DNA of 32,607 bases from a candidate division Zixibacteria bacterium SM23_73_2. Lineage in GTDB: Bacteria; Zixibacteria; MSB-5A5; SM23-73-2. The position numbers were made by a program, and so were the translations under genes. Shown piece by piece: positions 5,786 through 32,607 of the stretch (within the stretch, counting starts at the first letter, position 1; every line of letters starts with the position of its first letter). The notes beneath the pieces are model-generated. The model worked only from the letters and a program-made list of their open reading frames with translations, was not told the origin of the DNA and did no database searches. The stretch spans positions 1 through 32,607 of the forward strand of contig LJUW01000012.1 in the NCBI GenBank assembly GCA_001304315.1, written 5' to 3'.

Positions 5786-7285
5786 TCAATAGGTGAAGGT
5801 CAAATAATAAATCTCCCGCTCCCTTTCCACAAACAATACGGCTTTTCTATTACTCTGGATTTTTTCCTCTATCTCTTTAAAATCAGCCACATTCGAAATC
5901 TCCAGGTTGTTAATTCCTTTGATAATATCCTTTTTTCTCAAACCCAATCTGTCCGCCTTGCTTTTTTCCTCAACCGAGGTTATAAAAGCTCCATTGGTAT
6001 CATTTAAATCCAACTGGAAGGCTAACTGGGGAGTGATGTTAGCAACCATCATCCCCAGTTTGCTTCGGTATTCACCCTTAATCTCCGTATCCAGTTTCTC
6101 AGTTTTAAACTGAATCTTTTTAACCTCCCCTTTACGGATATAGGAGATCTCCAACCTTTCACCTGGCTTAGAATAGGTGGTTAGATCCTCCCAATCAAAG
6201 CTGTCCTTTACCTTTTTTTCGTTTACGCTGGTTATGACATCCCCCCTTTTCAATCCTTTTTTCTCAGCCGGAGAGTCGGGATAAACATCGGTTATTATCA
6301 CCCCTTTAGCCCTGTCCAGATTCAGGCTCTGAGCTAAAAGGGGAGTTAAGTTCTGGACCTTCACCCCTGCCCATGATTTGTTAACTTTACCGAATTGGAT
6401 AAGATCGTAAAGCACCCTTTTGGCCTTGTTTATAGGAATGGCAAAACCGATACCTTCGGAGCCCCGGGATGTGGTGAAGATAAAAGTATTTATCCCTATC
6501 ACCTCCCCTCTGGCGTTGACCAGCGGTCCTCCGGAATTGCCCGGGTTTATCGCTGCATCGGTCTGAATCATCTTCCGATAAATCCGCCTCTGCTCCTTCT
6601 CCATCTTGATATCCCGGTTCAAAGCAGAAATCACCCCAACGGTAACAGAAGGATTGGGATCGTCCAGAAGATATCCGAAGGGATTTCCCAGAGCTATTGA
6701 CCATTCGCCGATAATCAGATCGTCGGAGTCGCCCAGGGTTACCTGAGAAAGTTTCTCCGCCTTTATTTTCAGGACCACCAGATCCAAATTCTCATCCGAA
6801 CCCACAATTTCCGCCTCATACTCTTCCCCATTGGTCAAAGTAACCTTGATCTGGTCAGCACCTATTACCACATGCTCGTTGGTCAAAACGTATCCATCCT
6901 CGCTTATTATAAATCCCGATCCCAGCCCGTAGATTTTCTCCTTGTATTCTTTGGGTCCGAAAAATCTCCCCCAGAACTGATTGAAAAACTCATCCTCGAA
7001 AGGAGAAAAAAAAGGCGATTCCCTTACCACCCTGGTCTGAACCACGCTCACCGAGACCACCGAGGGACCCACCGCCTTTGCAGCCTTTACTATCGCATTC
7101 TGGCGCGAGTTTTCTATATCCGAATATTCCGGGTAAGCGTAGGCATTTTCCAAAGGCTTATCCAGAAAACTCAAATCCTTCTTACCCGAACTTTCCTTTT
7201 TGGCATCTGATAAAATCGAGTAGCCGATGCCTGCGGCAATTACACCCAAGAAAAACACCAGAAGAAAACTTACAAATCTATTCAT
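5786..7285 (-). CDS. Do-family (HtrA/DegP-like) serine protease with two PDZ domains
   Basis: VLTNEHVV (His), NLDLVVLKI (Asp), NPGNSGGPLVN (Ser), followed by two PDZ-like regions (WAGVKVQNLTPLLAQSL..., GMMVANITPQLAFQL...). Confidence 0.95.
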   Translation of the reverse strand: MNRFVSFLLVFFLGVIAAGIGYSILSDAKKESSGKKDLSFLDKPLENAYAYPEYSDIENSRQNAIVKAAKAVGPSVVSVSVVQTRVVRESPFFSPFEDEFFNQFWGRFFGPKEYKEKIYGLGSGFIISEDGYVLTNEHVVIGADQIKVTLTNGEEYEAEIVGSDENLDLVVLKIKAEKLSQVTLGDSDDLIIGEWSIALGNPFGYLLDDPNPSVTVGVISALNRDIKMEKEQRRIYRKMIQTDAAINPGNSGGPLVNARGEVIGINTFIFTTSRGSEGIGFAIPINKAKRVLYDLIQFGKVNKSWAGVKVQNLTPLLAQSLNLDRAKGVIITDVYPDSPAEKKGLKRGDVITSVNEKKVKDSFDWEDLTTYSKPGERLEISYIRKGEVKKIQFKTEKLDTEIKGEYRSKLGMMVANITPQLAFQLDLNDTNGAFITSVEEKSKADRLGLRKKDIIKGINNLEISNVADFKEIEEKIQSNRKAVLFVEREREIYYLTFTY

Positions 7286-7326: not shown

Positions 7327-7349
7327 AAAGCATGCATAAAAAGCATACT
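7327..7349 (-). terminator. Weak hairpin and T-run downstream of the 7384-8406 gene
   Basis: Minus strand GTATGC-TTTTTAT-GCATGC-TTTTTTT, 6-bp stem with one G:U. Confidence 0.45.
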
Positions 7350-7383
7350 TTATAATATATACAAGGAAAATGACTAAAAGTTT

Positions 7384-8406
7384 CTAAATCGACTTGTCAG
7401 CACATCTTCTTTTTATGGGGATCTCCTCTGCCTCCTGAACAACCACCTTTTTTTGCAGTCTTTTACCATTCCGAATTAATGTAAAATCCGCCTCCGAGCC
7501 TCTGCTCAATCGCGAGATCATCCTTTTCAGCTCGAGTTTACTTTTGATTCGACTACCCTGACAATTTATGATCAGGTCACCTTCCTTAAGTCCCGCCCGA
7601 GATGCGGGACTTTTCTCAAATACCTTGGTTATCAGAACTCCTGCCTCTCCCTCAAAGTCCTCTTCAATCTCGGAGTGGATACCGATCCAGCCCCTTTTGA
7701 CCTCACCATTTTTCTTGAGGATCTTTCCAATCTCCTTGCAGGTGGTTGCTGGCAGAAGTAAAACCATATTCTTTTCCCCCTCAACCTTCCCTTCTATCAA
7801 ACCCATAAGCTCACCCCTGTTATTAAAAACCGGGGTTCCACAGTAATATATGGAACAGGGGATGTTTAACAGCAATAGGTTTTTATCGTAACCATCCATC
7901 CCTCCGATCCAAGAGTTTCCAACCGTTACCAAGCTCGCCTGCAGTCCCTTGGAATATCTGGTATTTCCCAGGACAATGCCCAGGTTCCCACTCTGTATTT
8001 TTTCAGCTATTCTAACCGGCTTTAAGTCCTTCTTTTGAATTCTAAGCAGGCTTACATCCGTTTCGAAATCGCATAGTATCTCTTTTATCTCCGAATCCTC
8101 TATCACCTCTCCACTCTGCAGGGTTACAGTCACCTGATCCACATTACTCAGGATGTTCTCCAAGGTCAGAATATGTTCCTGGTCTAATATCACGCCCACC
8201 CCATATTTTTCAAGACCCAGATCTTTGTTTTTGGCGGAGATGAAAACTATTGAAGGCCCCGCCTTATCCATTATCTGGGATAGATTCTTCTCTATCTCCT
8301 CCAAGGTGTTCCTGGTACCGGAACAGCTTAATAAAAAAAGGGAAAAAATCAGAAATCTGAAAAGAAAAGATTTTGCAGTAAGATCATTCATCGACCAGAA
8401 ATTCAC
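7384..8406 (-). CDS. HtrA-family lipoprotein pseudoprotease with one PDZ domain
   Basis: Lipobox LLSC; trypsin-like fold regions align with HtrA but the His motif is ILTLENIL (expected ILTNEHVV) and the Ser motif is IYYCGTPVF (expected GNSGGPLV). PDZ: GVLITKVFEKSPASRAGLKEGDLIINCQG. Confidence 0.85.
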   Translation of the reverse strand: MNFWSMNDLTAKSFLFRFLIFSLFLLSCSGTRNTLEEIEKNLSQIMDKAGPSIVFISAKNKDLGLEKYGVGVILDQEHILTLENILSNVDQVTVTLQSGEVIEDSEIKEILCDFETDVSLLRIQKKDLKPVRIAEKIQSGNLGIVLGNTRYSKGLQASLVTVGNSWIGGMDGYDKNLLLLNIPCSIYYCGTPVFNNRGELMGLIEGKVEGEKNMVLLLPATTCKEIGKILKKNGEVKRGWIGIHSEIEEDFEGEAGVLITKVFEKSPASRAGLKEGDLIINCQGSRIKSKLELKRMISRLSRGSEADFTLIRNGKRLQKKVVVQEAEEIPIKRRCADKSI

Positions 8407-8879
8407 TTTTTATCCACCGAATAGATTGTCACACCCCCATCGTCTATTGAAGAAAATATCTCTTCATCATTTATAACTAAATTGTTCTCAAACCCCTCGG
8501 ATAAGGTTCTTGAATGAAAAGCAGGGTACAAACCTAAAAGGACAAACAAAAATATCAGGATGGAAAATACATATGCAGGCAAGGGTCCTAAAATTGGTGT
8601 TTTGAGAAATTGGAAGAAATCATCCAGCCAGTTTAAGATCCGGTTTTTTGCTGAAATATTGGATAACTTATGAGATAAAACGGATTCATAGAGTTCCCAA
8701 AAGTTTTCTCCCGCTTCGAATTTAAAGCTATTTTTTATCATCTCAATGGAATTATTATAGAAATCGAATTCCTTAGCACATAAGGGACAATCTCGGAGGT
8801 GCTGGTCAAGTGCTTTTTTCTCCTCTCCGGTCAGGTCCCAATAATTTAAGATCAGCTTCCTTATCTTTTTACAGTTCAT
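8403..8879 (-). CDS. Anti-sigma factor with zinc-finger (zf-HC2/ZAS-like) domain and one transmembrane helix
   Basis: MNCKKIRKLILNYWDLTGEEKKALDQHLRDCPLCAKEF (HxxxCxxC), central TM PAYVFSILIFLFVLLGLY; overlaps the sigma gene upstream and the pseudo-HtrA gene downstream. Confidence 0.87.
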   Translation of the reverse strand: MNCKKIRKLILNYWDLTGEEKKALDQHLRDCPLCAKEFDFYNNSIEMIKNSFKFEAGENFWELYESVLSHKLSNISAKNRILNWLDDFFQFLKTPILGPLPAYVFSILIFLFVLLGLYPAFHSRTLSEGFENNLVINDEEIFSSIDDGGVTIYSVDKK

Positions 8880-9513
8880 ATTTAATCCCCGACCCTTCTA
8901 AAATCCCTGAATAGTGTCTCAACAGCTCATCTCTCAGTTTGGAACGTGCACGGTGCAGATACCATCTTACCGTTGCCTGAGGCATGCTGGTTATCTCAGC
9001 TACCTCTTTTATATCCAGGCCTTCCAGATCCCTGAGGACGAAAACCGATTTCTGCTTGTCATTTAGAACGCTCATTGCTTTTTTTATAGCCCATCTTATC
9101 AGGTTTCTCTGATAAGATCTCTCCACATTAGATTTTTTCTCTTTAAGCTCCCCCCCTACGCTTTCCAGAGTCTCATGTCGATGTTTTCTATGCTTCCTTA
9201 TAAAATCGATGCTGGCATTAATGGTTATTCGGTAAAGCCAAGTGGAAAGCTTTTTAGAGGTGTCGAATCGATTCAAATTCTGATAGGTCTTTACGAAAAC
9301 TATTTGAGAGATATCTTTGGCATCCTCATAATTCCCTATCATCTTATAAGCGATGCTTGCCACCTGGGCTTTGAACCTCTCTACTAACTCTTGAAATGCC
9401 TTCTGGTCACCTCCCTTTGCTTTTTTAATTATCTCTTTTAAGCCCTTCTCATCACCAAAGGACTTGGTTTTTTTTAGCTCTGACTTCTTCTCTCCGAGCC
9501 TTTTAATATCCAT
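8869..9513 (-). CDS. ECF-type RNA polymerase sigma factor (RpoE-like)
   Basis: Region 2 (FQELVERFKAQVASIAYKMIGNYEDAKDISQIVFVKTYQNLNRFDTSKKLSTWLYRITINASIDFIRK) and region 4 (VLNDKQKSVFVLRDLEGLDIKEVAEITSMPQATVRWYLHRARSKLRD). Confidence 0.95.
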   Translation of the reverse strand: MDIKRLGEKKSELKKTKSFGDEKGLKEIIKKAKGGDQKAFQELVERFKAQVASIAYKMIGNYEDAKDISQIVFVKTYQNLNRFDTSKKLSTWLYRITINASIDFIRKHRKHRHETLESVGGELKEKKSNVERSYQRNLIRWAIKKAMSVLNDKQKSVFVLRDLEGLDIKEVAEITSMPQATVRWYLHRARSKLRDELLRHYSGILEGSGIKYEL

Positions 9514-9832
9514 TGGACGGCTCTAAATTTCTACGTTTATGGTTTTTGGGACGTTTGCCTACTTATACTTTACAGTTTTTTTTGCAATCACAGATCTGAA
9601 AAATTAAATGTATTTATCAAAAAGACCCTCCATGAATCCTTTAGATAAATAACCACTTTCTTATAAAGTACAAATCCTAAATAAAAGATACAAAAATTTC
9701 CTGTATTTCCAAAGGCTTTTTTACTCCAGTACTCATCTCTTCACATAAGCTCCTTAAAGTTAATCAGTTAAATACAAAATCTCCAGGTATGATGTCACTG
9801 ACACAATAAACGTTTTTTTTGAGATCATTCTG

Positions 9833-11250: not shown

Positions 11251-12044
11251 AAAAACCCTCTGTAATTTATTTTGACTAAATTTATGCTATCAATTCTTAA
11301 TGTCAAGTTTTTTTTCACTTTGAACTAAAAAATTTTTTAATCTTTTTCTTATAGGTTCTTCAATTGGAATATTTTAGCTTAATGCAGGATATAGAACTGA
11401 AGTAAACTTATCTCCTAAGAGCTTCAAAAGTTGTTGAAAAAGATATAGATTAACAAAAAATGTTAAATCCTCTTACTTTTTGTTCAACATCTGTTTTTAT
11501 CGGTTTTTTACTAAAAATCTTGAAATGATATAGAAGAATTTGAATTTTGTTTATAAAGAATAAAAGCCAACGAATTTTAAGTCATTGGTTTATAAAAGAT
11601 TAACAAAATCCACATTGAGCTGATCAAAAGCAGGAGGTGTTTTGCTGAATCTGAATTTGCTATTTTATAAGAATATATTCCCTTCTCAATATCTTGTTTA
11701 CCACCTTAATGAACTTTTCAGAATTTAAGTTCTGTAAGCTGTATATGTGCCAGCAGGTCTTCTCCGAATTTTTGATCGGATTTGACTTTTTGATTTTTTT
11801 TGGCATCGCTTCCCACCTTTTTCTTTTTTACAATATGCAACAGCTGTGCCAGATAAAAGAAAGGAGAGTTATTTGAAAGAACCTGGTAGTGGATTTAATG
11901 ATTTGAGGTTAGAGGCAACCAGAAATCCCGCGAAAACCAAAATTCAATTTGATTTTCTCTTTGATATGGGCAAAAAACCATAAAATATTGATTTCCCCGC
12001 ATACATTTTTTGATTGTTTTTTAGAGGGAATTTTGGTATTTTTG

Positions 12045-12659
12045 ATGAAACTAAAAATGAACAAACCCGTATTCAAAAAAAGGACAGACGAAGACAAAAA
12101 AAAAGAGGACTTACTTGTTCAACAAGCCCTGAAAGGCAACAAAAAAGCATTTGAGAATTTAGTGCAGAGATATCAAAGGTCGGTCTACCATGTAATATAT
12201 AAAATTATAAAAGACCCGGAGGAGACAAAAGACCTTATGCAGGAAACTTTTTTAAAAGCCTATAGCTCTCTCTCAACCTACAAATCACAATTTCGTTTCA
12301 CCACCTGGCTTTACCGAATAGCAGTCAATAACTCCATCGACTATCTGAGGAAGAAAAAGATAATCACCCTATCTTTGGATCAAAAAATTGAAACCAAATA
12401 TGGTAAGTTAAGCTTTGAGCCCAAGGATTGGACTTATAATCCCGAGAAAGAACTTGTGGCCAAAAAGAAAAGATTCTCCATAGACAAAGCCATCCAGGCC
12501 CTGCCTAAAAAATACCGAGAGGTGATTGTATACCGACATAAAAAGGAAAAATCCTATAAGGAGATATCCGAGATCCTGGGAATTCCAGCCGGCACGGTAA
12601 AGGCCAGGATCTTCAGGGGAAGGGAGCTTTTGAAGAAGAAATTGAGATTTCTGAGATAG
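12045..12659 (+). CDS. ECF-type RNA polymerase sigma factor
   Basis: QQALKGNKKAFENLVQRYQRSVYHVIYKIIKDPEETKDLMQETFLKAYSSLSTYKSQFRFTTWLYRIAVNNSIDYLRKKK and ALPKKYREVIVYRHKKEKSYKEISEILGIPAGTVKARIFRGRELLKKKL. The true start is more likely 12045 or 12057 than the supplied 11949. Confidence 0.93.
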   Translation: MKLKMNKPVFKKRTDEDKKKEDLLVQQALKGNKKAFENLVQRYQRSVYHVIYKIIKDPEETKDLMQETFLKAYSSLSTYKSQFRFTTWLYRIAVNNSIDYLRKKKIITLSLDQKIETKYGKLSFEPKDWTYNPEKELVAKKKRFSIDKAIQALPKKYREVIVYRHKKEKSYKEISEILGIPAGTVKARIFRGRELLKKKLRFLR

Positions 12660-12665
12660 GAGGTT

Positions 12666-13715
12666 TTGAGGTTGAAAAAGCATAGCTTGGTTTCAATATT
12701 ATTATTCTTTGCCTTATGCATAATATTTCACCCGATTTCGACTGAGGGGAAAGAGTTCACTATTGATTTTCACAGAGAATTCGACGTGGTTGAAAATCCC
12801 TCGCTTTATGTGGATAACCTATCCGGAGAAATCAGAATAAAATCCCATTCGAAAAACAAGATCATAATTAAAGCCTCAAAGGTAGTTAAAGCTAAAAACC
12901 TTGAAAGGGCAGAAAAAGTAGCTGAAGATACCAAAATAAAAACCAGGAAAAGAGACTCCGAAGTGATAATACGCACCCAGTACCCCAGGTTCAGACTTTT
13001 TCAAGATGAAAAGGTAAAAGTGTATTATCATATTCTTGTGCCGGAGAAAACCAAATTGGATTTGAAAACCACCTCAGCGAATGTGGATATCGAAGGGATC
13101 AGGGAGAATATCAACGTATCCACGACTTCAGGTGACATCACCATCGAAGAGGCTTTCGGAGAGATCGTCACCTCCTGCACCTCGGGGGATGTAATTTTTT
13201 GGGATATCTCAGGCAAAATTAGAATCAAAGGCACAAGCTCCGATATAGAGTTGAGTAAAATCGAAGGGGATCTGAGGATCGAGTGCACCAGCGGAGATGT
13301 GGAAATTGACAACTTGGAGGGTGAAGCGGAAATAAGCGTTACCTCCGGGGACATTACGCTACAGGAAATCGATGGTAACATAGAAGCAACCTCCGCCTCC
13401 GGTGATGTGGATATCCTTCAAAAAAAGGGCTCTCTTGATCTTGAATCCATAAGCGGAACCATCAAAGCCAAAACAAAGGTGACAGAAGACCACCGATATT
13501 CCCTGGAAACATTAAGCGGTGATGTCTATCTTTACATTCAAAAGGATGCCGATGCAAAAGTTAAACTGGAAACTTCCAGCGGAACCATCCATTCCAAAGT
13601 CTCCTTAACCTTGGATAGCTTTTCACGAAAACTTCTGGTTGGAGAAATGGGGAATGGGGAATCCGAAATTAACATCTTCACTACCAGTGGAGATATAACT
13701 ATCAAGGAGTATTAA
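12666..13715 (+). CDS. DUF4097-family (putative adhesin, beta-helical repeat) secreted protein
   Basis: Signal peptide; repeating 'TSGDITIEEAFGEIVTSCTSGDVIF...TSGDVEIDNLEGEAEISVTSGDITLQEIDGNIEATSASGDVDI'. A TTG start at 12672 is also possible (aggagg at 12658-12663). Confidence 0.87.
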   Translation: MRLKKHSLVSILLFFALCIIFHPISTEGKEFTIDFHREFDVVENPSLYVDNLSGEIRIKSHSKNKIIIKASKVVKAKNLERAEKVAEDTKIKTRKRDSEVIIRTQYPRFRLFQDEKVKVYYHILVPEKTKLDLKTTSANVDIEGIRENINVSTTSGDITIEEAFGEIVTSCTSGDVIFWDISGKIRIKGTSSDIELSKIEGDLRIECTSGDVEIDNLEGEAEISVTSGDITLQEIDGNIEATSASGDVDILQKKGSLDLESISGTIKAKTKVTEDHRYSLETLSGDVYLYIQKDADAKVKLETSSGTIHSKVSLTLDSFSRKLLVGEMGNGESEINIFTTSGDITIKEY

Positions 13716-13729
13716 AAAAGGCAACTTCT

Positions 13730-14863
13730 ATGTACTGGATGAAAAAAATAATAGTTCTTTTTCTCCCTTTTACATTTTTGTTATTCTCCTTTAGTGAAAT
13801 CCTCTCCCAGGAAAAAGAGATCTGGACCATCGATACCCTGAAAGTCATAGAAATAGAGATCAGCGATGAAGAAATAAATCTGGTGACTCCGGAGGGGAAA
13901 GAATACAAATATCAACCAAAAAAGATCGAAAGAATCACCACCGATAAAAAAATCGAAAAAGCCAAGGAAAGAAAGCGTTCTTTAATTCGAAAGGATATCG
14001 TAAGGGCAGGAACTGATATCATAATAGACCAGGATGAAGAGGTAGACGGTGATGTAACCGCCATAGGCGGGGACGTAGTGGTTAAAGGTGTGGTCGATGG
14101 AAATGTGGTGTCGATCTGGGGTGATATCCTGGTTACCTCAGTGGGGATAATAGAGGAAGACGTAACCAGCGTGGGAGGGGAGGTTACTGTAGAACCCGGA
14201 GGGATAATAAAAGGGGAAAAGGTGGAAGTAAAGGGGAATATCCCTGGAGCTAATTTCCCCTCGATTATCATCCAACCCAAAATAATCCCCAGAGGTTTCG
14301 GGATTTTGGCCTGGATGGTGAAAATATTAATTTTTCTCTTCTTAGGAATGATCGTTTTCTCGGTTGTGCCCAAAAACGTCGGCAAAGTAAAGGATAAAGT
14401 TGAAAACGAATTCTTGAAATCGCTTTTGATCGGACTTTTAGCCTGGATTTTGTTCCTGCCGGCTTTTGTTCTTCTTCTGATAACTATAATAGGAATACCT
14501 CTGGCTATACTTTTACCTTTGGTTCTAATTGTGGCAACTATAGTAGGCTATACTGCAGCATCCCTGTTTATCGGGGAGAAGATAAAACAAAACACGAAAA
14601 TTAAACCCCAAACACCTCTTCTAACCGTCCTTTTGGGAATAATTGCGATAGATTCGATCGCATTTCTTGGAGTATTAACTGGCGTTTGGGGGCACGCTCT
14701 TTTGCCTCTCTCCACCACCTTAACGGTGGTTTACTGGGTAACCTTCTCGATAATTGTGACCACAGGCTTGGGATCGGTAATCATAACCCGTTTCGGAGCC
14801 AGACCAAAAGAAGCCAAAATGCAAAAAACGACTCCTGAAGGCAGACCAACTTCCTTTGAATAA
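13730..14863 (+). CDS. Bactofilin-like (polymer-forming) repeat membrane protein with several C-terminal TM helices
   Basis: Signal peptide; DQDEEVDGDVTAIGGDVVVKGVVDGNVVSIWGDILVTSVGIIEEDVTSVGGEVTVEPGGII repeats, then multiple hydrophobic helices. Confidence 0.82.
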   Translation: MYWMKKIIVLFLPFTFLLFSFSEILSQEKEIWTIDTLKVIEIEISDEEINLVTPEGKEYKYQPKKIERITTDKKIEKAKERKRSLIRKDIVRAGTDIIIDQDEEVDGDVTAIGGDVVVKGVVDGNVVSIWGDILVTSVGIIEEDVTSVGGEVTVEPGGIIKGEKVEVKGNIPGANFPSIIIQPKIIPRGFGILAWMVKILIFLFLGMIVFSVVPKNVGKVKDKVENEFLKSLLIGLLAWILFLPAFVLLLITIIGIPLAILLPLVLIVATIVGYTAASLFIGEKIKQNTKIKPQTPLLTVLLGIIAIDSIAFLGVLTGVWGHALLPLSTTLTVVYWVTFSIIVTTGLGSVIITRFGARPKEAKMQKTTPEGRPTSFE

Positions 14864-15760: not shown

Positions 15761-16615
15761 TTAATTTATATATGCTCTCAGGGATTTGCTCCGGGAAGCG
15801 TGTCGCAGCCTTCTTATCGCCTTCTCCTTTATCTGTCTAACCCTCTCCCGGGTGAGGTTGAACCTGGCACCGATCTCCTCCAAAGTTAAAGCCTTCTCGT
15901 GATTCAAGCCAAAATAAAGGTTAACCACCTCAGCTTCACGAGCAGATAGGCTGTCCAGAGCTTTCTCGATCTCTATTCGCAAGGATTCCTCCAGAAGGTC
16001 CCTGTCCGGTGCTGGTTGGAGCTCATCCTCCAGAACGTCGATTAACGAATTGTCCTCGGAAACCGCAAAAGGGGCATCCAGAGACAGATGCGAGTTGGAG
16101 ATCTTAAGGGTATCCGATACCTCCGTCTCGGAGAGCTGCAGCTCCCTGGCAATCTCATCCGCAGAAGGTTCTCTACCGTACTCCTGCTCTAAGGTATTGG
16201 AGATCTTGCCTATCTTATGCAGGGTTCCGACCCGGTTCAAAGGAAGCCTGACAATCCTCGACTGCTCTGCCAGAGCCTGCAATATCGCCTGTCTTATCCA
16301 CCAAACCGCATAAGAGATGAACTTGAACCCCCTGGTCTCATCAAACCTTCTGGCTGCCTTGATAAGACCGATATTCCCCTCATTTATCAGATCAGCTAAG
16401 GAGAGCCCCTGGTTCTGATATTGTTTTGCCACGCTTACCACAAAGCGTAAATTAGCCTTGGTTAATTTTTCCAGGGCACTCTCATCTCCCTGACGAATCC
16501 TTTTAGCTAAATCAACCTCCTCTCGAGGAGTAATAAGAGGAGTTTCACCGATCTCCTTTAAATACAGGTCTAAAGATCGGTCCTCGTCTCTATACCTTCT
16601 TGACTGCTTTGCCAA
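15761..16615 (-). CDS. rpoD: Primary-type RNA polymerase sigma factor RpoD/SigA (short form, lacks region 1.1)
   Basis: [98 protein letters not shown]...[30 protein letters not shown]. Confidence 0.95.
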
Positions 16616-16649
16616 CTTTTATGGTTCCTCCTTTCTCGAAGAGAGTCCA

Positions 16650-18155
16650 TCAAGGTTTAATCGCTAAAAAGATGGTATTGCCATTTCTGGAGATTAAAAA
16701 TGGTATTGCTTTTCCCCTGTCTTTCAAAGAATCGATTATTCTCTCATAATCGGATAGATTCTCAACCTCACTCTGGTCGATTTCCATTATGATATCCCCT
16801 TCCCTTATTCCCTTTTTATCCGCGGCGCTACCGGGTTCAACCGAGACCACCAGCACACCGGGTGCCCACTTAACCTTGTATTGTGCAGCAAGCTGCTTGG
16901 TTGAGGTATTTACCGTCAGTCCCAGCCATTTCCCCTTCTGTTCCTTCTTCTCCGGTTCCGCTTGGGCAACGAAATCCGACTTGCTCCCCAATCTTGACCT
17001 GAGAATTTTTTCTTTACCGTCCCTTATAATTTTTAATTCCACCTCGGTATCGGGTGAGGTCTTAGCTACCATAAACATGAACTGCTGGACATTCTCAACC
17101 TTCTTGCCATTGAATTCAATAACCACGTCTCCCCTTAAAAGCCCTGCCCCCTCCGCCGGGGTGCCTTCCTGAACCTGATTTACGATAATCCCGTCGGTTG
17201 AAGATAAGTCCAAAGCCTCAGCCAAATCGTGGGTCACGTTTCCGATGTAAATCCCCAGATAGCCTCTGGTGACGCTTCTCCCGGCCATAAGATCGGGCAG
17301 AACCGATTTGGCCAAGTTGACCGGGATGGCAAATCCTATCCCGATGTTAAATCTCATACCGGTCGGGTTGGTAATGGCGGAATTTATCCCGATGACCTCC
17401 CCACCAATGTTAACCAGAGGTCCTCCTGAATTTCCTGGATTGATGGATGCGTCGGTCTGGATGTAATTCTGGTAAGAGGGTGTCATCTCCTCTCCAAAAT
17501 AGAGATTTCCCCGTCCCACAGCACTTATCACCCCCACGGTTACGGTTCTATCCAAGCCCAACTGCGGGAAGGGATTACCAATAGCGACTGCCCAGTCCCC
17601 AACCTTAATCGAGTCGGAATTGCCCAAGGTGACCACAGGCAAATCTCCCTCCGGTTCTATTTTCAAAACTGCTATATCCGTTTCCTGATCTTGTCCCAGA
17701 AGTTCAGCCTTGTATTCAGAACCATCCGAAAGCTTAACCCATATCTTATCCGCACCTGATACCACATGGTTATTGGTCAATATATATCCATCCTCTCTGA
17801 TAACAAAACCAGATCCCAAGCTGGAGGTTCTGTATTTCTCTTGAGGTACAGACTTTTCCGGAGGCTCTTCTCCGAAAAATCTTCTGTAGAATTCATCGAA
17901 GGGAATGTATCCAGATGACCTTTCCACCACCTTCTCAGCAGAGATATTAACCACCGAAGGGCTTACCATCTCAGCTACCTTAGCGAAAGGACTCTCCCCG
18001 GAATCGAAAACAGAACTTCCTTCCGAGAAAGCTTTTTCAGAAAAAGCTTCTTTTTTTGAAATGGTAATATTGAAATTTGAGGAAATCAGAATCCCAAAGA
18101 TTATGAAGATCAAAGCTAAAAATGCTAAAATCCCTGGATTTCTAAGTTTACGCAT
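16650..18155 (-). CDS. Do-family (HtrA/DegP-like) serine protease with two PDZ domains
   Basis: ILTNNHVV, ETDIAVLKI, NPGNSGGPLVN; two PDZ domains (GYLGIYIGNVTHDLAEAL..., LGLTVNTSTKQLAAQY...). Confidence 0.96.
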   Translation of the reverse strand: MRKLRNPGILAFLALIFIIFGILISSNFNITISKKEAFSEKAFSEGSSVFDSGESPFAKVAEMVSPSVVNISAEKVVERSSGYIPFDEFYRRFFGEEPPEKSVPQEKYRTSSLGSGFVIREDGYILTNNHVVSGADKIWVKLSDGSEYKAELLGQDQETDIAVLKIEPEGDLPVVTLGNSDSIKVGDWAVAIGNPFPQLGLDRTVTVGVISAVGRGNLYFGEEMTPSYQNYIQTDASINPGNSGGPLVNIGGEVIGINSAITNPTGMRFNIGIGFAIPVNLAKSVLPDLMAGRSVTRGYLGIYIGNVTHDLAEALDLSSTDGIIVNQVQEGTPAEGAGLLRGDVVIEFNGKKVENVQQFMFMVAKTSPDTEVELKIIRDGKEKILRSRLGSKSDFVAQAEPEKKEQKGKWLGLTVNTSTKQLAAQYKVKWAPGVLVVSVEPGSAADKKGIREGDIIMEIDQSEVENLSDYERIIDSLKDRGKAIPFLISRNGNTIFLAIKP

Positions 18156-18374
18156 AGTCTTTTACCCACTTTTTAATACGTTTTTTGCAATTTTTTATAC
18201 AAGTTTTTATAAAAAACCTTTTTTTAGCTCTACCTTACTAACTTCGGTAAAATTAAGAAAAAGGGGAGTTCTTTTTGTTCAAAAGCAAGCCTTGTGGTGA
18301 AAGTACGAAACATAATTCAAAAACTAATACGCAATAAATCTATTTATGTTTTGCAGTTGTTGAACATTTTTTCC

Positions 18375-18403
18375 TTGACCCAAAAATATTTTATATTTAC
18401 TTA
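18375..18403 (+). promoter_or_regulatory. Possible sigma-70-like promoter of the plus-strand HtrA gene
   Basis: TTGACC (18375-18380), 17-nt AT-rich spacer, TACTTA (18398-18403); aggagg RBS at 18414-18419 then ATG 18426. The -10 match is poor. Confidence 0.3.
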
Positions 18404-18425
18404 GCGTAATCTTAGGAGGATAAAA

Positions 18426-19772
18426 ATGAGAAGACTTTTTTTTATTTTAGCAGTTGTTTTACTGACCCTCTGGAGCAATTCATTTGCCTCACAAAAGACC
18501 CAGAGAATCTTAAGGCTTTTTGACGATTTAGAGGAGGTCATAATTTCGGTCTCGAATTCAATTAAACCCTCGGTTGTCCATATCGAGGTGGTTAAAAAAT
18601 CTGAGAGTTTCAAGTACAAATCCTTAGCCTCAGGTCTGATCGTGGATAAAGATGGTTTGATTCTTACCAACGAACATGTGGTGGATAAGGCTCAATCGAT
18701 CACCGTAACCCTGGCAAGCAAGCTCGAATATTCCGCAGAACTCATCGGAACAGATAAGCTCACCGATTTAGCCCTGATTAAAATAAAAACAGGCGAGAAT
18801 TTAATTGTGGCGAATTTGGGCGATTCGGAAAAGGTTGAGGTGGGGGAATGGGTAATTGCTGTGGGAAATCCTTACGGGTTTGACCGAACCGTGTCCTTTG
18901 GGATAATAAGCGGGATAGGAAGAGTATTGCCCAATCTACCGGTGGAGATACAGCCCATAAACGAGTTCATTCAAACCGATGCAGCCATTGATCCGGGCTC
19001 ATCCGGTGGTCCTCTGGTCAACCTGAAAGGGGAGGTAATAGGAATAAACTCGGTCTGGGTAGGGAGGGGACAGGGATTTACCATTCCAATAAACACAGCC
19101 ATTGAGGTCAAAGATAAACTTCTTTTATCCGGAACCATAGAAAGGGGCTGGATAGGAATTGAGATCCAACCTCTCAATAGAGATCTTGCCAGATATTTCG
19201 AGGATGAGGGTCTGGAGGGCATTATCGTTTCGGACGTGGAACCGGATTCACCTGCGGAAGCCTCTGGACTTCTATCCGGGGATATAATTATCGAGTATCA
19301 GGGAGAAAGGGTAAAAGCTGAAAAGGATGAAGATTTAAACAAATTCAATCTACTTATCTCTCAGACCAAACCGGAGGATAAAGCCAAACTGAAAATCAAA
19401 AGAGGTGAAAATCTTATAGAGATGGAAGTGGAAATCGGTCAAAAGCCAAAAGTGAAACCGGATGAATACGAGACAGATTTGGGCTTCACCGTTGAGGAGA
19501 TAACCGATGCCATGTACAAAAGATACAGGTTGGAGGATAGGGTAGGGGTTATAGTATCATATGTCGAGGTAGGAAGCCCCGCCAGCAAAGGGGAGCTTTC
19601 CGAATCGGATGTGATTATAAAAATAGAGGATCTAAGTATCGAAACCTTAGATGATTTCAAAGATGCTCTGGAAAAGCTTGACAACAGGGATCAATTTTTA
19701 TTAACGGTTAAAAGAGGAAAAAACAAAAGGTTCGTTCTGATAATAAAAGAGGAAGAAAAAGAACAGCAGTAA
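18426..19772 (+). CDS. HtrA-like serine protease with two PDZ domains
   Basis: ILTNEHVV, LTDLALIKI, DPGSSGGPLVN; PDZ GIEIQPLNRDLARYF... and DLGFTVEEITDAMYKRY.... Confidence 0.94.
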   Translation: MRRLFFILAVVLLTLWSNSFASQKTQRILRLFDDLEEVIISVSNSIKPSVVHIEVVKKSESFKYKSLASGLIVDKDGLILTNEHVVDKAQSITVTLASKLEYSAELIGTDKLTDLALIKIKTGENLIVANLGDSEKVEVGEWVIAVGNPYGFDRTVSFGIISGIGRVLPNLPVEIQPINEFIQTDAAIDPGSSGGPLVNLKGEVIGINSVWVGRGQGFTIPINTAIEVKDKLLLSGTIERGWIGIEIQPLNRDLARYFEDEGLEGIIVSDVEPDSPAEASGLLSGDIIIEYQGERVKAEKDEDLNKFNLLISQTKPEDKAKLKIKRGENLIEMEVEIGQKPKVKPDEYETDLGFTVEEITDAMYKRYRLEDRVGVIVSYVEVGSPASKGELSESDVIIKIEDLSIETLDDFKDALEKLDNRDQFLLTVKRGKNKRFVLIIKEEEKEQQ

Positions 19773-26884: not shown

Positions 26885-29800
26885 TTAGTCTTCCCACTTC
26901 TCCTGACAATCGCAGTGGATTACAATAGGCTTTCCGAAATAGTATTTCGCCAAGTTAATCACGTCGGTCAGGTTCAGCGCACAGTCACCGTTCACATCAG
27001 CCAGGAATCTGAAAGTCTCGGCTCCGGTTCCGAAGTAGTCATTGGCCATATCGATCACATCACTCAGGTTAATCGCACCGGCTGCATCTCTGTTAGCGTT
27101 TCCGCACTTGAATGCCCTGACGTAGTTCTTCAGATTATCCAGTCCGGTAGCAGAGGCTACAATCAAGAACTGCATCTCAATCGTATCGGTAACTGCCAGA
27201 TCAGCAGCTATCTGTTTTCCGGTTATCACCTGATTGTAGTCAGCAATCCTCGAGATAGAGGTATCCACAACAGCGAACCCGGAGTAATTGGTCATCAAAG
27301 ACCAGAGCGAGTCGGTGTCATAGCCCTCGTTGGGATAGATGTAGATGTCGTTGGCAGTGATAAGAGCGTTAATCGGGTCAACGTCATCGGGATCGTGCCA
27401 AGCCACACCGGCAAACAGGTTAGGCTCAGATCCGGCTCCGAATCCTTGCTGATAGAGAAGATTCAGAGACTCATCAAAGCCCGGGGTGTTCAGTGCGTTT
27501 CCGGTATCCGAGGGGCAGTCGATGTCAACCGCAATACCAGCCAGAGCGGCAGGATTGGTGGTCGAAACGTCGGAAACATCCCACCATGGAGGCTTGGGGT
27601 TCTTGTAGATTTTGACGTGCCACTTTTTGATGAATCTCTCCATAGAGTTAATAGTACCAGAATAGAAGATCTTGTCGTAGTACTCGACCGTCAGCCACCA
27701 CCACTTCCAATGGAAAGGAGGAAGCGGGTCCAGAGGATTGCATCTGGCTTTTGCTATCTTGGTCTTTACTCCGCCCGCATTCACCGCTTTCATCTCGGTC
27801 TCGGCCAGCATGTACCTCTCGTTGAATAAGTATCTGGCAACGTGGGTGGATCCAGCTAATGCATCAGAGCCAATGATTACCGAACCATCGAAAACGGGTC
27901 CGAAATCAGGATCCGGCATGATAGCGGGATCGAAGGTCATCGAGGCCGAATCGATCTGGTGACCGATGTTGGAAACGTTGGATTCGGTCAGGTAGAAGGA
28001 ATTGTTGTAGAATGCGGCGAAAGCCGGTTCCACATACACATCCGAAACCACCACGTGGATGGGAATGTTGATATTGTTGTTTCCGACTCCATCATCCGAC
28101 ACAACGTTAATGTTACCCACCAGCATTTCCTCTGAATACGCGGAAGCGTTGATGTCAAATGTGACCCTATTCGGACAGCCGCCCTCTAAAATCGAGAAGG
28201 AGCTGGGAGTGATGTTCGTAATCCACGCCGGCCCAGTAATACCGGTAACGTTAAGGGTAGTAGTTCCAATGCCGGATATCACGATTTCCTTATCTTCAAC
28301 TGTACCATTGTTGGGAACCGCAATGGCGTTAGGCATTTCGAAACCAGCGGGCATCCAATCGATCCTGGGAAGAGGGGTTATGGTCCACACCGGATACTTG
28401 TAGTAGAGGTAGGGGCTGTTAGTCCAGGTGCCCTCATCCATGGGTATTCCGCCTGCATCCCTGTCGTTTACGTATGCAATGTGCAAAAACGAATCCACCC
28501 GGGTGGCTAAAGAAGCCCAGTGATCGGAATCGCACTCGTCAGCCACACAGCCGTTGTCAGGGGTATTGGTGATGTTCCTGGGGGCATCCCAGGTAGCTCC
28601 ATGGGTGGTGGAAACGGAGACGTAAAGCTCTCCTACACCGTACCCAGCAGCGGATACGAGACCCGAGTCGAACTGGGTCCACAAACAGTAAACGTAATCC
28701 TGGTTAAGGCTGGGGATTATTCCTACCCCGCCGCTTATCTTGGTCAGGGTCAAATTGAAAACTCCCGGCTCGCTTTCCCAGTTAGCGCCAGCGATGGGCT
28801 GCACCCTGATGGTATCGGATCCGCAGATCTTCTCTGTGGCTTTGCTCCAGTGAAAGAGCTTAACGTCGTCCACATCATAGTCATCTTCCGGCTCGTCCCA
28901 CTTGAAACCGGAGAAGAAAACGTGAAGGTTACCGCTCACATCGTAGCAGGCAGCCAGCTCCATCTCAGCCCGGTACAGGTCTCTCCCCTGTCTCCACTTG
29001 GTGCAGTTGTTGTCAGAATCGTAGGGGTCCCGGTCAATGAAATCGTCGAAACTGCTTCCGGCAACCCAGTCATCTCCTCCGTTGGTCGACTCGACGTACC
29101 AGATCTCACCTGCGGTCCTCTGATAGCTGGTGTCGTCGGGTACGGGCCAGGTCTCGGTCCATTTCTGCCAGACCAGGGCAACCTTGTTCGAGCCGGGATC
29201 AGTAGCAACGATGTAGGCTGTCGGCTCGCTGATATCCACCTCGGCAATGAAGTCGCTGTCCGGGTCGATCCAGCCGCCGTCGAGAACTCTGGGAGTAATT
29301 CCAGGAGCTGCGCAGGTCAACAGGGAATAATCCCCATTGGGGGTGCAGCGGATATAACCCAAACCACCGGTACCCGATCCGGTTCCGGTTTTTATCAGAA
29401 CGTGAATCCGGTTGCTGCCGTCGACGTTTCCATGGGGCCACATTCCGCCCTCCTGCCAGAACTCCTCTGGATCTACCCCTTCACAGGAGTCAGGTATGTC
29501 AAACTCTTTTTTGTCATCGAAACCCGGAGCAGTCCTCTCGACCATAAGGGTAGCCCTTCTCTCCGCAGGATCGGGACCAGGATTAACATAGTGGAAAATA
29601 GCAACTTCTCTGGAATCCGAGAAGATTGCAAAATGACCGTATCCAGCCCTTTTGCCTCCATGGGTGTAGGAAGCAGCAGTGGTCCAGGCGCCACCCGGAG
29701 CCTTATAGGCTTCGTACATGAAACGGTTGGAGGTCATCTCCGGCAAAACCGTGGTCATGTAGGTCGAATGAATTCCATTCTCTCCTGATGTTGCCTGATA

Positions 29801-30055
29801 GTCGTTACAGATCATCGGGGGAATGGTGCTGTTGTGCTGATAGTCGTAGTAAACGTAACCGATTACGTGGTCATAAGGAGACTCGATTGTCCCTCTGAAA
29901 GCTCCCGGAGGAGGAGCGGTTATCAGGTAATCAAGTACGTAACCCGATCCATCCGCAAGGGGTGGATTGGGAAGAGGAGCATGCTTTGTTGCCCACAGGG
30001 AAACGCTGAAGATCATAAGGAAAACGAGGGATAACACCAAAACTTTTCTTGCCAT
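26885..30055 (-). CDS. Large secreted protein with C-terminal dockerin-like repeats
   Basis: Signal peptide MARKVLVLSLVFLMIFSVSLWA; C-terminal GNANRDAAGAINLSDVIDMANDYFG...ADVNGDCALNLTDVINLAKYYFG (duplicated F-hand). Confidence 0.9.
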   Translation of the reverse strand: MARKVLVLSLVFLMIFSVSLWATKHAPLPNPPLADGSGYVLDYLITAPPPGAFRGTIESPYDHVIGYVYYDYQHNSTIPPMICNDYQATSGENGIHSTYMTTVLPEMTSNRFMYEAYKAPGGAWTTAASYTHGGKRAGYGHFAIFSDSREVAIFHYVNPGPDPAERRATLMVERTAPGFDDKKEFDIPDSCEGVDPEEFWQEGGMWPHGNVDGSNRIHVLIKTGTGSGTGGLGYIRCTPNGDYSLLTCAAPGITPRVLDGGWIDPDSDFIAEVDISEPTAYIVATDPGSNKVALVWQKWTETWPVPDDTSYQRTAGEIWYVESTNGGDDWVAGSSFDDFIDRDPYDSDNNCTKWRQGRDLYRAEMELAACYDVSGNLHVFFSGFKWDEPEDDYDVDDVKLFHWSKATEKICGSDTIRVQPIAGANWESEPGVFNLTLTKISGGVGIIPSLNQDYVYCLWTQFDSGLVSAAGYGVGELYVSVSTTHGATWDAPRNITNTPDNGCVADECDSDHWASLATRVDSFLHIAYVNDRDAGGIPMDEGTWTNSPYLYYKYPVWTITPLPRIDWMPAGFEMPNAIAVPNNGTVEDKEIVISGIGTTTLNVTGITGPAWITNITPSSFSILEGGCPNRVTFDINASAYSEEMLVGNINVVSDDGVGNNNINIPIHVVVSDVYVEPAFAAFYNNSFYLTESNVSNIGHQIDSASMTFDPAIMPDPDFGPVFDGSVIIGSDALAGSTHVARYLFNERYMLAETEMKAVNAGGVKTKIAKARCNPLDPLPPFHWKWWWLTVEYYDKIFYSGTINSMERFIKKWHVKIYKNPKPPWWDVSDVSTTNPAALAGIAVDIDCPSDTGNALNTPGFDESLNLLYQQGFGAGSEPNLFAGVAWHDPDDVDPINALITANDIYIYPNEGYDTDSLWSLMTNYSGFAVVDTSISRIADYNQVITGKQIAADLAVTDTIEMQFLIVASATGLDNLKNYVRAFKCGNANRDAAGAINLSDVIDMANDYFGTGAETFRFLADVNGDCALNLTDVINLAKYYFGKPIVIHCDCQEKWED

Positions 30056-30528
30056 CTCTTACTCCTTTCTGTTAAGTTACTCTAAGCCAAACTTCCCTCA
30101 AGCCCCTCTCAAATCAACTCTCGCTCGTTTGTTGAAACTCACCTCCTCTCCTTAAATCATTTGAAGTTTAAATGTTGTAGGTTTTTGATGTCAGAGTGAT
30201 ACCTCACCACCTTTCATTTGGTTAAATTTACACTAACATTTTCTTTGAGAATAATTAGCTGCAAGCCAATCAATCTCTTAATACCAAAATGAGAGAAAAA
30301 TTTTGCGTGTCTTATTTCTAAGTCTTCAAATAATTCTTTGGGCAAAGCCTTTCTAATCATTAATAAAATAAAGAAAAAAATCAATTTTGTCAAGTATTTT
30401 TTGAGATTTTTATCTAATTTTTACTTCCCTGTTCTCTTTTGTCTGATAAAGACTTATAAAAAGCCTCTGGATAAATATATCGTCAGATTCAAAAACTTTT
30501 TAACCAGAATATAACAATCTCAAGCCAT

Positions 30529-32607
30529 CTATCTTAACTCCTTTTGGTAAAATGACTTAACCTTCATAAGAGGTTCTTCCCCTGAAGAATATCGAGCCAT
30601 AGGAGGAGCTGGTCCACCTTTGAGCAGGTAATTTGCCAGATAGATCACGTCTCCCAAAGTTATAAATCCATCCCCATCCACATCTCCGGCTTCCATGGGA
30701 TAAGGTTCAGGACCTCCTTTTAAGAAATAATTAGCCAGGTAAATTACATCACCAAGGTTAACCTCGCCGCTGAAATTGACATCTCCTGGTATATAAGCGA
30801 TGACTTCTATCTGAACGCTGAAGCTGTCAGCCAGGATTCCATCTGTGGCTATCAATATGATCTGGTACACCGAGTCTGCCTGAGTGCTGTCCGCGGCAAA
30901 GGTGAACAGGGCAGTTCCGTTTCCGCTATCGAACAAAGCTGCGTTTGCTGGCAGTGGAGCGGAGGTGAAGCTTGGAATGGTGCTGTCCGGATCGGTTGCC
31001 GATATGGTGAAGGATAGAAGTCTCTCCACTCCCGCTATATACTGGCTATCTATGGGAATTATCTCAGGCCGCTGATTTCCAGCTTCCAGAACCGCTATCT
31101 GGATCTCTTGAGAATCAGCTAAGGAGGTGGCATCCGTGGCAATGAAAGTCACCCAGAAGGTGTCCTCCTGAGCGTAGTGGGGAGCAAAGGTTAGGGTTCC
31201 GCTGAAATCTCCGTTGTCCACAAACTGAGAATTGACAGGGAGGTTAATGGCACTCAAAACCGGTGGAGTGTTATCCGGATCGTTGGACCAGATGGTCAAA
31301 ACCAGGGTGTCCCCCTCCACCACCGAGGTGTCAGGGATGGGTAAAAGTTCCGGAGGCTGGGGCACGTTCATCACCGTAACCTGAGCCTGTTTCATAGTAA
31401 AGGTATCAGGGTAATCAGCATCGTAAGCCATGAAGCCGAAATAATAAAATCCAGCTTGAGAATAATCAGGGGTGAAGGTGAATGTACCTACTCCGTTTCC
31501 ACTATCCACAAAGGAGGTATTGGGCCACTTGGGACCGTAATCCAAAATGGGTATGGTCAGGTCAGGATCGCTTGCAAAAACGTTAACCCTCAGGGTATCT
31601 CCCTCGTACACCGATTGAGCCGAAATGTTTTGAATCTGGGGCATGCGATTAACGTTGTTTACTGTTATCTGAACACTGAGGCTGTCGTATAAAAGCGTGT
31701 CCACAGCGTCCACTGCTTTGAAGATTACTGTATAGATGCCTGCCTGGAAATAATCGGGGTTGAATTCAAAGGTTCCGGTCCTGTCCAGATTATCCGTAAA
31801 GGTGGCATTGTCGGGCAAGTTATAGGCTTTGAGACTTGGGATGGTGCTATCCGCATCGGTTGCAGCTACCGGGAAAGTCAAGTTCTTGTTCTCGTCAATC
31901 TCCTGGGAGGAGACCGGATATAAAATCGGCATCTGGTTCCCTGCCTCGATCACCGTTATCTGCACCAGCTCAGAATCAGCAAGCTGGCCATCCGAGGCTA
32001 TGAAATTGAGATTGTAGATTTCGGATTGGACGTAAACCGGGGTGAAGGTGAAGAGTCCCCGTCCATTACCACTATCCACCAGACTTGCATTTGCCGGTAA
32101 GTTAGGCACACTTAAACTGGGAATGGTGCTGTCCGGATCAACTGCGGATAAAGGAAAGATCAGAGTATCACCTTCGGTAACGCTTTTTGACCCGATGGGG
32201 CTCAAAATCGGATATTGATTCCCTGCATCTATTACCTGAACCACCACATCCTCATAATCGGTTAACTCCCCGTCGCTTGCATAGAAAGTTATCTCTTTCA
32301 ACCCCTGCTGGGCATAATCGGGTGAAAAGGTGAAAGAGCCTTTTCCATTTCCACTGTCCACAAAAGCTGCGTTTCTTGGCAAGGGCTGGCTGGTATAAAG
32401 GATAGGAGTGGTTCCATCCGGGTCTATTGCAGAGACAATGAAGGTTAAGGTGTTGCCCTCAGTGACCTTTTTGGTTCCAATTGGAGCCAATACCGGTGCT
32501 CTATTGGGCCCCTGATTGATAGTTATGATAACGGTCTCCGATCCGGTCAAAGGTGGACCCTCCGCATCCGAGCACTGGAAGATCACCGTATCCTGTCCCA
32601 CCTGAGT
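30529..32607 (-). CDS. Ig/cadherin-like tandem repeat secreted protein with C-terminal dockerin; 5' end beyond the window
   Basis: About six repeats of ~95 aa (NQxPxLxPIxSxxVxEGDTLxFxVxAxDPDxTxPxL..LPxNAxFxDSGNGxGxFTFxPDYxQ); dockerin GDVNFSGEVNLGDVIYLANYFLKGG...GDVDGDGFITLGDVIYLANYLLKGG. Frame open through 32607 (TQVGQDTV...). Confidence 0.92.
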   Translation of the reverse strand, partial: TQVGQDTVIFQCSDAEGPPLTGSETVIITINQGPNRAPVLAPIGTKKVTEGNTLTFIVSAIDPDGTTPILYTSQPLPRNAAFVDSGNGKGSFTFSPDYAQQGLKEITFYASDGELTDYEDVVVQVIDAGNQYPILSPIGSKSVTEGDTLIFPLSAVDPDSTIPSLSVPNLPANASLVDSGNGRGLFTFTPVYVQSEIYNLNFIASDGQLADSELVQITVIEAGNQMPILYPVSSQEIDENKNLTFPVAATDADSTIPSLKAYNLPDNATFTDNLDRTGTFEFNPDYFQAGIYTVIFKAVDAVDTLLYDSLSVQITVNNVNRMPQIQNISAQSVYEGDTLRVNVFASDPDLTIPILDYGPKWPNTSFVDSGNGVGTFTFTPDYSQAGFYYFGFMAYDADYPDTFTMKQAQVTVMNVPQPPELLPIPDTSVVEGDTLVLTIWSNDPDNTPPVLSAINLPVNSQFVDNGDFSGTLTFAPHYAQEDTFWVTFIATDATSLADSQEIQIAVLEAGNQRPEIIPIDSQYIAGVERLLSFTISATDPDSTIPSFTSAPLPANAALFDSGNGTALFTFAADSTQADSVYQIILIATDGILADSFSVQIEVIAYIPGDVNFSGEVNLGDVIYLANYFLKGGPEPYPMEAGDVDGDGFITLGDVIYLANYLLKGGPAPPMARYSSGEEPLMKVKSFYQKELR
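30800..32505 (-). repeat. Six tandem ~285-bp coding repeats (Ig/cadherin-like domains)
   Basis: Repeat openings NRAPVLAPIG, NQYPILSPIG, NQMPILYPVS, NRMPQIQNIS, QPPELLPIPD, NQRPEIIPID in the 30529-32607 ORF. Confidence 0.88.

Follow-up and report, generated by a model that had tools for sequence, protein, structure and literature searches.

DegS is the textbook case of envelope sensing, in which one protein reads the signal through its PDZ domain and also cuts the anti-sigma factor. What, then, does a DegS-like protein do in a sigma factor operon when the residues for cutting are gone? The question is raised by three minus-strand genes in the window, by which we mean the whole stretch of 32,607 nucleotides analysed here (contig C27 of a 2.26-Mb Zixibacteria MAG). 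They encode an ECF sigma factor, a zinc-type membrane anti-sigma factor and an HtrA-like lipoprotein, here called pseudo-HtrA, and an active-type HtrA gene follows them (Table 1). We put the probability at about 0.5 that pseudo-HtrA acts on the anti-sigma factor from the periplasm, as a sensor or co-regulator that does not cut, with an RseB-like role built on a DegS fold.

Table 1. Coordinates of the window operon and adjoining features
Feature	Position	Strand	Basis and remarks
ECF sigma factor	8869..9513	(-)	Sigma70_r2 and r4_2; orthologues 52-93% identical in 11 relatives
Zinc-type membrane anti-sigma factor	8403..8879	(-)	HxxxCxxC motif and conservation, model, regional conservation
Pseudo-HtrA lipoprotein	7384..8391	(-)	Alternative start GTG at 8406; Trypsin_2 and PDZ_2, PDB alignments, Foldseek
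Active-type HtrA	5786..7285	(-)	Catalytic H, D and S all in place, two PDZ; domain matches; not a constant member of the module
Terminator-like hairpin in the gap separating the pseudo-HtrA and active HtrA genes	7327..7351	(-)	Similar hairpin in the sister genome (L037)
Probable operon promoter CAAAC-N17-CGTA	9532..9557	(-)	Element upstream of the sigma gene in 11/12 operons

All four gene identities proposed in the preliminary description were upheld. The sigma and anti-sigma genes do overlap by 11 nt (8869-8879), and the 98-nt spacing between pseudo-HtrA and the active HtrA is real and contains the hairpin. The 4-nt overlap described between the anti-sigma and pseudo-HtrA genes (8403-8406) is probably unreal: judged by its orthologues, pseudo-HtrA is more likely to start at the in-frame ATG at 8391 than at the GTG at 8406, and with the ATG start the overlap would vanish. 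Elsewhere in the window, a second ECF sigma gene on the plus strand is followed by one gene for a DUF4097 protein and one for an unknown protein (11949-14863), a block kept together near the window operon in several relatives. Two more active-type HtrA genes, divergently oriented, adjoin a sigma-70 gene at 15761-19772, an arrangement also seen in relatives (L049 and L050).

That the third gene encodes a DegS-fold lipoprotein, composed of a trypsin-like barrel and one PDZ domain and deprived of its catalytic triad, is well supported. By descent the protein belongs to the HtrA/DegS family, with Trypsin_2 and PDZ_2 matched above cut-off and the DegP/DegS models matched below their equivalog cut-offs. 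A lipobox cysteine (Cys28) precedes the trypsin-like domain, and the C-terminus reads RRCADKSI. The AlphaFold model has a mean pLDDT of 76, and its top PDB match in Foldseek is DegS with a YQF peptide (E 8e-24); the TM-score against DegS 5jd8 is 0.86 by target length, and DegP/DegQ, MucD and AlgW are the next matches. The layout is that of DegS, with a single PDZ domain whose entry motif RGWIGI is conserved. A DegS-type sensor would have one PDZ domain that binds hydrophobic C-termini and a membrane tether in the periplasm; with its PDZ and lipobox, pseudo-HtrA is a candidate for such a sensor. No Pfam match to the MucB_RseB domain was found, which places pseudo-HtrA outside the RseB/MucB family. 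Compared with the magnetosome proteins, it showed no match to the MamO model at E 1e-3 and a weak match to MamE through the PDZ alone.

Alignments to PDB structures bear out the substitutions read from the sequence alone in the preliminary description: N84 occupies the His position, D117 the Asp position and C189 the Ser position, and the protein has no intact His-Asp-Ser triad elsewhere. When 134 genomes of the phylum were searched with a pseudo-HtrA profile, 12 members scored 208-564 bits, and the best match after them was an ordinary HtrA at 145 bits. The His position is N in nine of the 12 and S in three, the Asp position is D in the window protein and N in the 11 others, and at the Ser position any of C, S, A, G and P may stand, with Cys in two. 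Asn and Cys, the replacements described for the window protein, are accordingly not conserved features; likewise, the Asp motif said to be retained is present in the window protein as D117 and is no conserved remnant. No orthologue has a catalytic His and none a complete triad (0/12), so that the triad that defines an HtrA protease is lacking throughout. With the triad broken in all members and the replacements varying, what unites the family is an inferred lack of protease activity and not the exact residues.

Loss of the catalytic site has not been accompanied by loss of constraint. The frame is open in all 12 genomes, and dN/dS is 0.09-0.14 in the pairs with unsaturated dS, which indicates purifying selection. 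Outside the catalytic site, several motifs vary little or not at all, among them GNTxYSKG, SWIGGxDxYD, GTPxFN and an RRC tail ending in Ile or Leu. Pseudo-HtrA also stays with its operon. An independent anti-sigma profile gave 13 matches at 177-247 bits, with the next at 50 bits, and the 13 genomes are the same 12 that carry pseudo-HtrA plus one (G004) whose contig stops just behind the anti-sigma gene. The order sigma, anti-sigma, pseudo-HtrA is kept in 12/12 genomes where the contig allows a check. The reading of the protein as a true pseudoprotease is supported, and of the observations that the preliminary description had named as counting against its proposal (an intact triad elsewhere, orthologues with normal triads, or no conserved linkage), none was made. 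No family member has kept the catalytic site whole, and the gene is nevertheless under purifying selection beside the sigma and anti-sigma genes.

Two genomes outside Zixibacteria, G134 and G140, have the same type of operon, with sigma factors 42-43% identical. In G134, an additional gene lies between the sigma and anti-sigma genes, the anti-sigma factor ends in Phe, and pseudo-HtrA retains the Ser and the RRC tail.

The tail of pseudo-HtrA (7384-7410 in the window) is conserved among the orthologues as RRCxxRSI with an invariant C335, and a second invariant cysteine, C223, lies behind the protease domain. It is possible that the two cysteines pin the tail through a putative disulfide, or that the tail serves the PDZ domain as a self-ligand. 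The AlphaFold model gives no firm view of the tail or of the C223-C335 pair, its pLDDT falling below 50 at residues 328-338.

The anti-sigma factor has no Pfam match and was assigned from its motif and conservation. It is of the zinc type (ZAS), with an HxxxCxxC motif, a transmembrane helix and an overlapping ECF gene upstream. The zinc motif consists of C3 and H27-x3-C31-x2-C34, and C3, H27, C31 and C34 are invariant. This cytoplasmic domain is followed by one transmembrane helix (approximately residues 102-121) and a conserved periplasmic tail of 36 residues; the structural model is reliable in the zinc domain only, and the tail beyond the helix is weakly modelled. Conservation is 0.69 in the periplasmic tail (131-158) versus 0.58 in the zinc domain. 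The last residue in the window protein is Lys, not Phe or Tyr. Behind the genes of other zinc anti-sigma factors in the order, of approximately 380-400 residues (L239, L241, L244, L246 and L247), comes one for a secreted protein whose ADGFI(I/V)P start is conserved; here too an anti-sigma factor and a secreted protein form a conserved pair.

Upstream of the sigma gene, the element CAAAC/CCAAC-N16/17-CGTA occurs in 11/12 operons and lies at -42 to -44 in nine of them; in G009 and G005 it is too close to the ORF start used, which is probably annotated too early. The extended promoter pattern has its sole perfect match in this genome upstream of the window sigma gene. Because of this match and the conservation of the element, the sigma factor probably drives its own operon. 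A search with the promoter pattern showed no wider regulon: outside sigma promoters, matches were no commoner than with a reversed control pattern. There is no convincing site before the active HtrA.

The preliminary description had suggested that pseudo-HtrA may gate this neighbour; a role for it as a dedicated partner is not supported by comparison with relatives. In the sister genome, the active HtrA gene is cut short by an unrelated gene cluster (L037 9859-10260), in G004 and G006 it lies on other contigs, and in G026 and G011 no orthologue was found. It also occurs in 15 genomes without the sigma/anti-sigma/pseudo-HtrA trio. An in-frame TAG was noted in G005 and a split gene in G008 (L043 6912-8432; L039 814-2356); these copies and that of the sister genome may reflect decay or assembly error. 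Being so inconstant near the trio, the active HtrA is no fixed partner of the module.

The genome of the window holds a second operon of an ECF sigma factor, a zinc anti-sigma factor and a pseudo-HtrA, on contig C17 at 28514-31238 (L138:6515-9239). Its HtrA has His replaced by Ser and Asp by Asn and retains the Ser, and its anti-sigma factor ends in Phe. This second lineage is found in about 37 Zixibacteria genomes; some 60 others, mostly of family f10, have a divergent form of it, and the best matches beyond the phylum are linked to sigma and anti-sigma genes too, save for one ordinary HtrA. In a sigma tree, obtained by a quick search and with some long branches, the window operon and the second lineage fall into separate clades with 99 and 95% SH-aLRT, so that an early origin or divergence of this gene arrangement is indicated for two lineages or more.

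A complete triad is missing in 82 of the 85 sigma-linked HtrAs placed in one tree. The three with H-D-S (L160, L167 and L168, from G015, G037 and G031) are all of family f8 and fall within the second lineage; their triad may have been retained or regained. As these sets had been gathered with profiles built from degenerate members, we made a census that was not selected on degeneracy: in nine genomes, all proteins scoring above cut-off for Trypsin_2 were taken, and those whose gene directly follows one for a zinc anti-sigma factor were counted as linked. The nine genomes were picked among known operon carriers, so the census is unbiased on the HtrAs counted and not on the genomes. The triad is broken in 10/11 linked HtrAs and intact in 31/34 unlinked ones, the three exceptions being long or partial trypsin domains of doubtful alignment (Fisher p 9e-7, uncorrected for relatedness).

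The C-termini of the anti-sigma factors give a hint of the mechanism. In the second lineage, 62 of the 64 linked anti-sigma factors end in Phe or Tyr, compared with 0/20 zinc anti-sigma factors of the phylum used for comparison (a set that includes L252, which proved to be HtrA-linked after all and ends in Pro) and with 12.5% of background ORFs. The conservation of this end largely reflects shared descent. Most members also carry a YV(L/M)Px(V/I)S or RxRPVVRVY motif approximately 10-20 residues before the end. The PDZ domains of DegS and AlgW recognise exposed C-termini of outer-membrane and envelope proteins (PMC10202637), and by analogy the aromatic end makes a likely ligand for the PDZ domain of the HtrA-like protein encoded with it. 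The idea of the PDZ as a sensor, put forward in the preliminary description, thereby gains support from the predicted PDZ-ligand-type ends in related operons. Since the window anti-sigma factor ends in Lys, the argument covers these relatives and not the window operon directly; there, the anti-sigma tail is shorter, and the conserved C-terminal RRCxxRSI tail sits on pseudo-HtrA instead. A simple motif test detected the PDZ loop in 60/76 linked proteins, so not all linked HtrAs need bind alike.

If pseudo-HtrA is a sensor or co-regulator, its protease-like cleft, its PDZ domain or both would bind the periplasmic tail of the anti-sigma factor. It could thereby hold the anti-sigma factor at rest, a job of the RseB/MucB type, or hand it to a separate site-1 protease. 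Signals from the envelope, such as exposed C-termini of misfolded outer-membrane proteins, might compete for or alter that binding, after which another protease and a site-2 protease would cut the anti-sigma factor and free the sigma factor to act on its own operon through the CAAAC-N16/17-CGTA promoter. The genome encodes candidate site-2 proteases, which makes such a cascade with another site-1 protease possible. In the second lineage (C17 and the greater part of the phylum), the anti-sigma factor seems to bring its own PDZ ligand, the C-terminal Phe or Tyr.

Several observations argue for this sensor or co-regulator: the triad broken throughout with differing residues under low dN/dS, the strict co-occurrence and order with sigma and anti-sigma genes, the closest folds (peptide-bound DegS, MucD and AlgW), the conserved anti-sigma tail and promoter, the census, the aromatic ends with the G134 relative, and the site-2-protease candidates. 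The recurrence of the same pairing across and beyond the phylum suggests that pseudo-HtrA works by binding, not cutting. Against it stand the Lys end of the window anti-sigma factor, the lack of a regulon found beyond the operon, the incomplete occurrence of the PDZ loop, the shared descent that largely accounts for the aromatic ends and the low confidence of the model in the tail. A broader version, in which these are widespread ECF modules of a non-protease DegS-like sensor (activity lost several times) and an anti-sigma factor whose Phe/Tyr-COOH imitates a misfolded porin in the PDZ, is offered tentatively. Real misfolded outer-membrane proteins would then displace the aromatic end, and the window operon would be a second lineage in which the ligand has moved or been lost; if so, signal reading has been separated from cutting.

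Other explanations have to account for the same facts. HtrAs work as oligomers and active ones are encoded in this genome, one of them directly downstream, so the dead protein could pair with or recruit an active HtrA and gate the cutting of the anti-sigma factor, as in MamO/MamE (PMC4794232); the inconstancy of the neighbour and the distance between the pseudo and active forms (25-30% identity) make this unlikely. Pseudo-HtrA could equally be a passive output, a periplasmic holdase or chaperone of the stress response that is transcribed together with its regulators and does not act on the anti-sigma factor. Sigma operons often contain target genes, and HtrA folds are able to act as chaperones. 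We regard this too as improbable, given the strict anti-sigma linkage across families, the conserved anti-sigma tail and the aromatic ends of the related lineage, which suggest direct contact.

The window protein, with C189 at the Ser position and D117 kept, might by itself be taken for a protease that has been rewired, to Cys or in another way, and goes on cutting. With Cys in 2/12 orthologues, Asp in 1/12, A, G or P at the nucleophile in others and His in none, a cryptic enzyme is very improbable indeed. The loss of catalytic residues, differently among relatives, is also what a functionless, decaying pseudogene would display, an explanation to which we give practically no credence because it is already contradicted by the open frame in 12/12 genomes, the dN/dS values and the invariant non-catalytic motifs. 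What remains to be explained is a DegS-fold protein without cutting residues, kept by selection in sigma/anti-sigma operons of two lineages and several subfamilies. Such operons make it testable whether HtrA folds can regulate an anti-sigma factor by binding alone, and family f8, with its intact triad, provides a natural comparison of a cutting with a non-cutting form.

Literature searches, whose coverage leaves out most subscription journals, found no published sigma-linked pseudo-HtrAs, and the known systems each share a part of the arrangement. In E. coli rpoE-rseA-rseB with DegS and P. aeruginosa algU-mucA-mucB with AlgW (PMC10202637), as in the window, an ECF sigma factor and a membrane anti-sigma factor are followed by a periplasmic regulator in third place, and a PDZ-protease fold is tied to the pathway. 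RseB and MucB, however, have no HtrA fold, whereas the third gene of the window operon encodes a DegS fold; DegS and AlgW are active and encoded elsewhere, whereas the DegS-like protein of the window is encoded within the operon and has lost the triad. By sequence and model, the window protein has the fold of DegP/DegS-type HtrAs such as P. aeruginosa MucD, in which the triad is intact. In the Mycobacterium rseA-htrA-tatB genes beside sigE (PMC10027907), an HtrA gene likewise lies directly behind that of an ECF anti-sigma factor, but the HtrA there is said to be a serine protease whose target is a cell-wall amidase, a degenerate triad is not reported, and two further genes differ. MamO and the other magnetosome pseudoproteases (PMC4794232) resemble the window protein in being HtrA-family pseudoproteases under selection, in a family where catalysis was lost repeatedly and independently, and MamE-dependent proteolysis requires MamO but not its triad. 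Unlike the window protein, MamO serves magnetite formation and metal binding and has no link to a sigma/anti-sigma pair.
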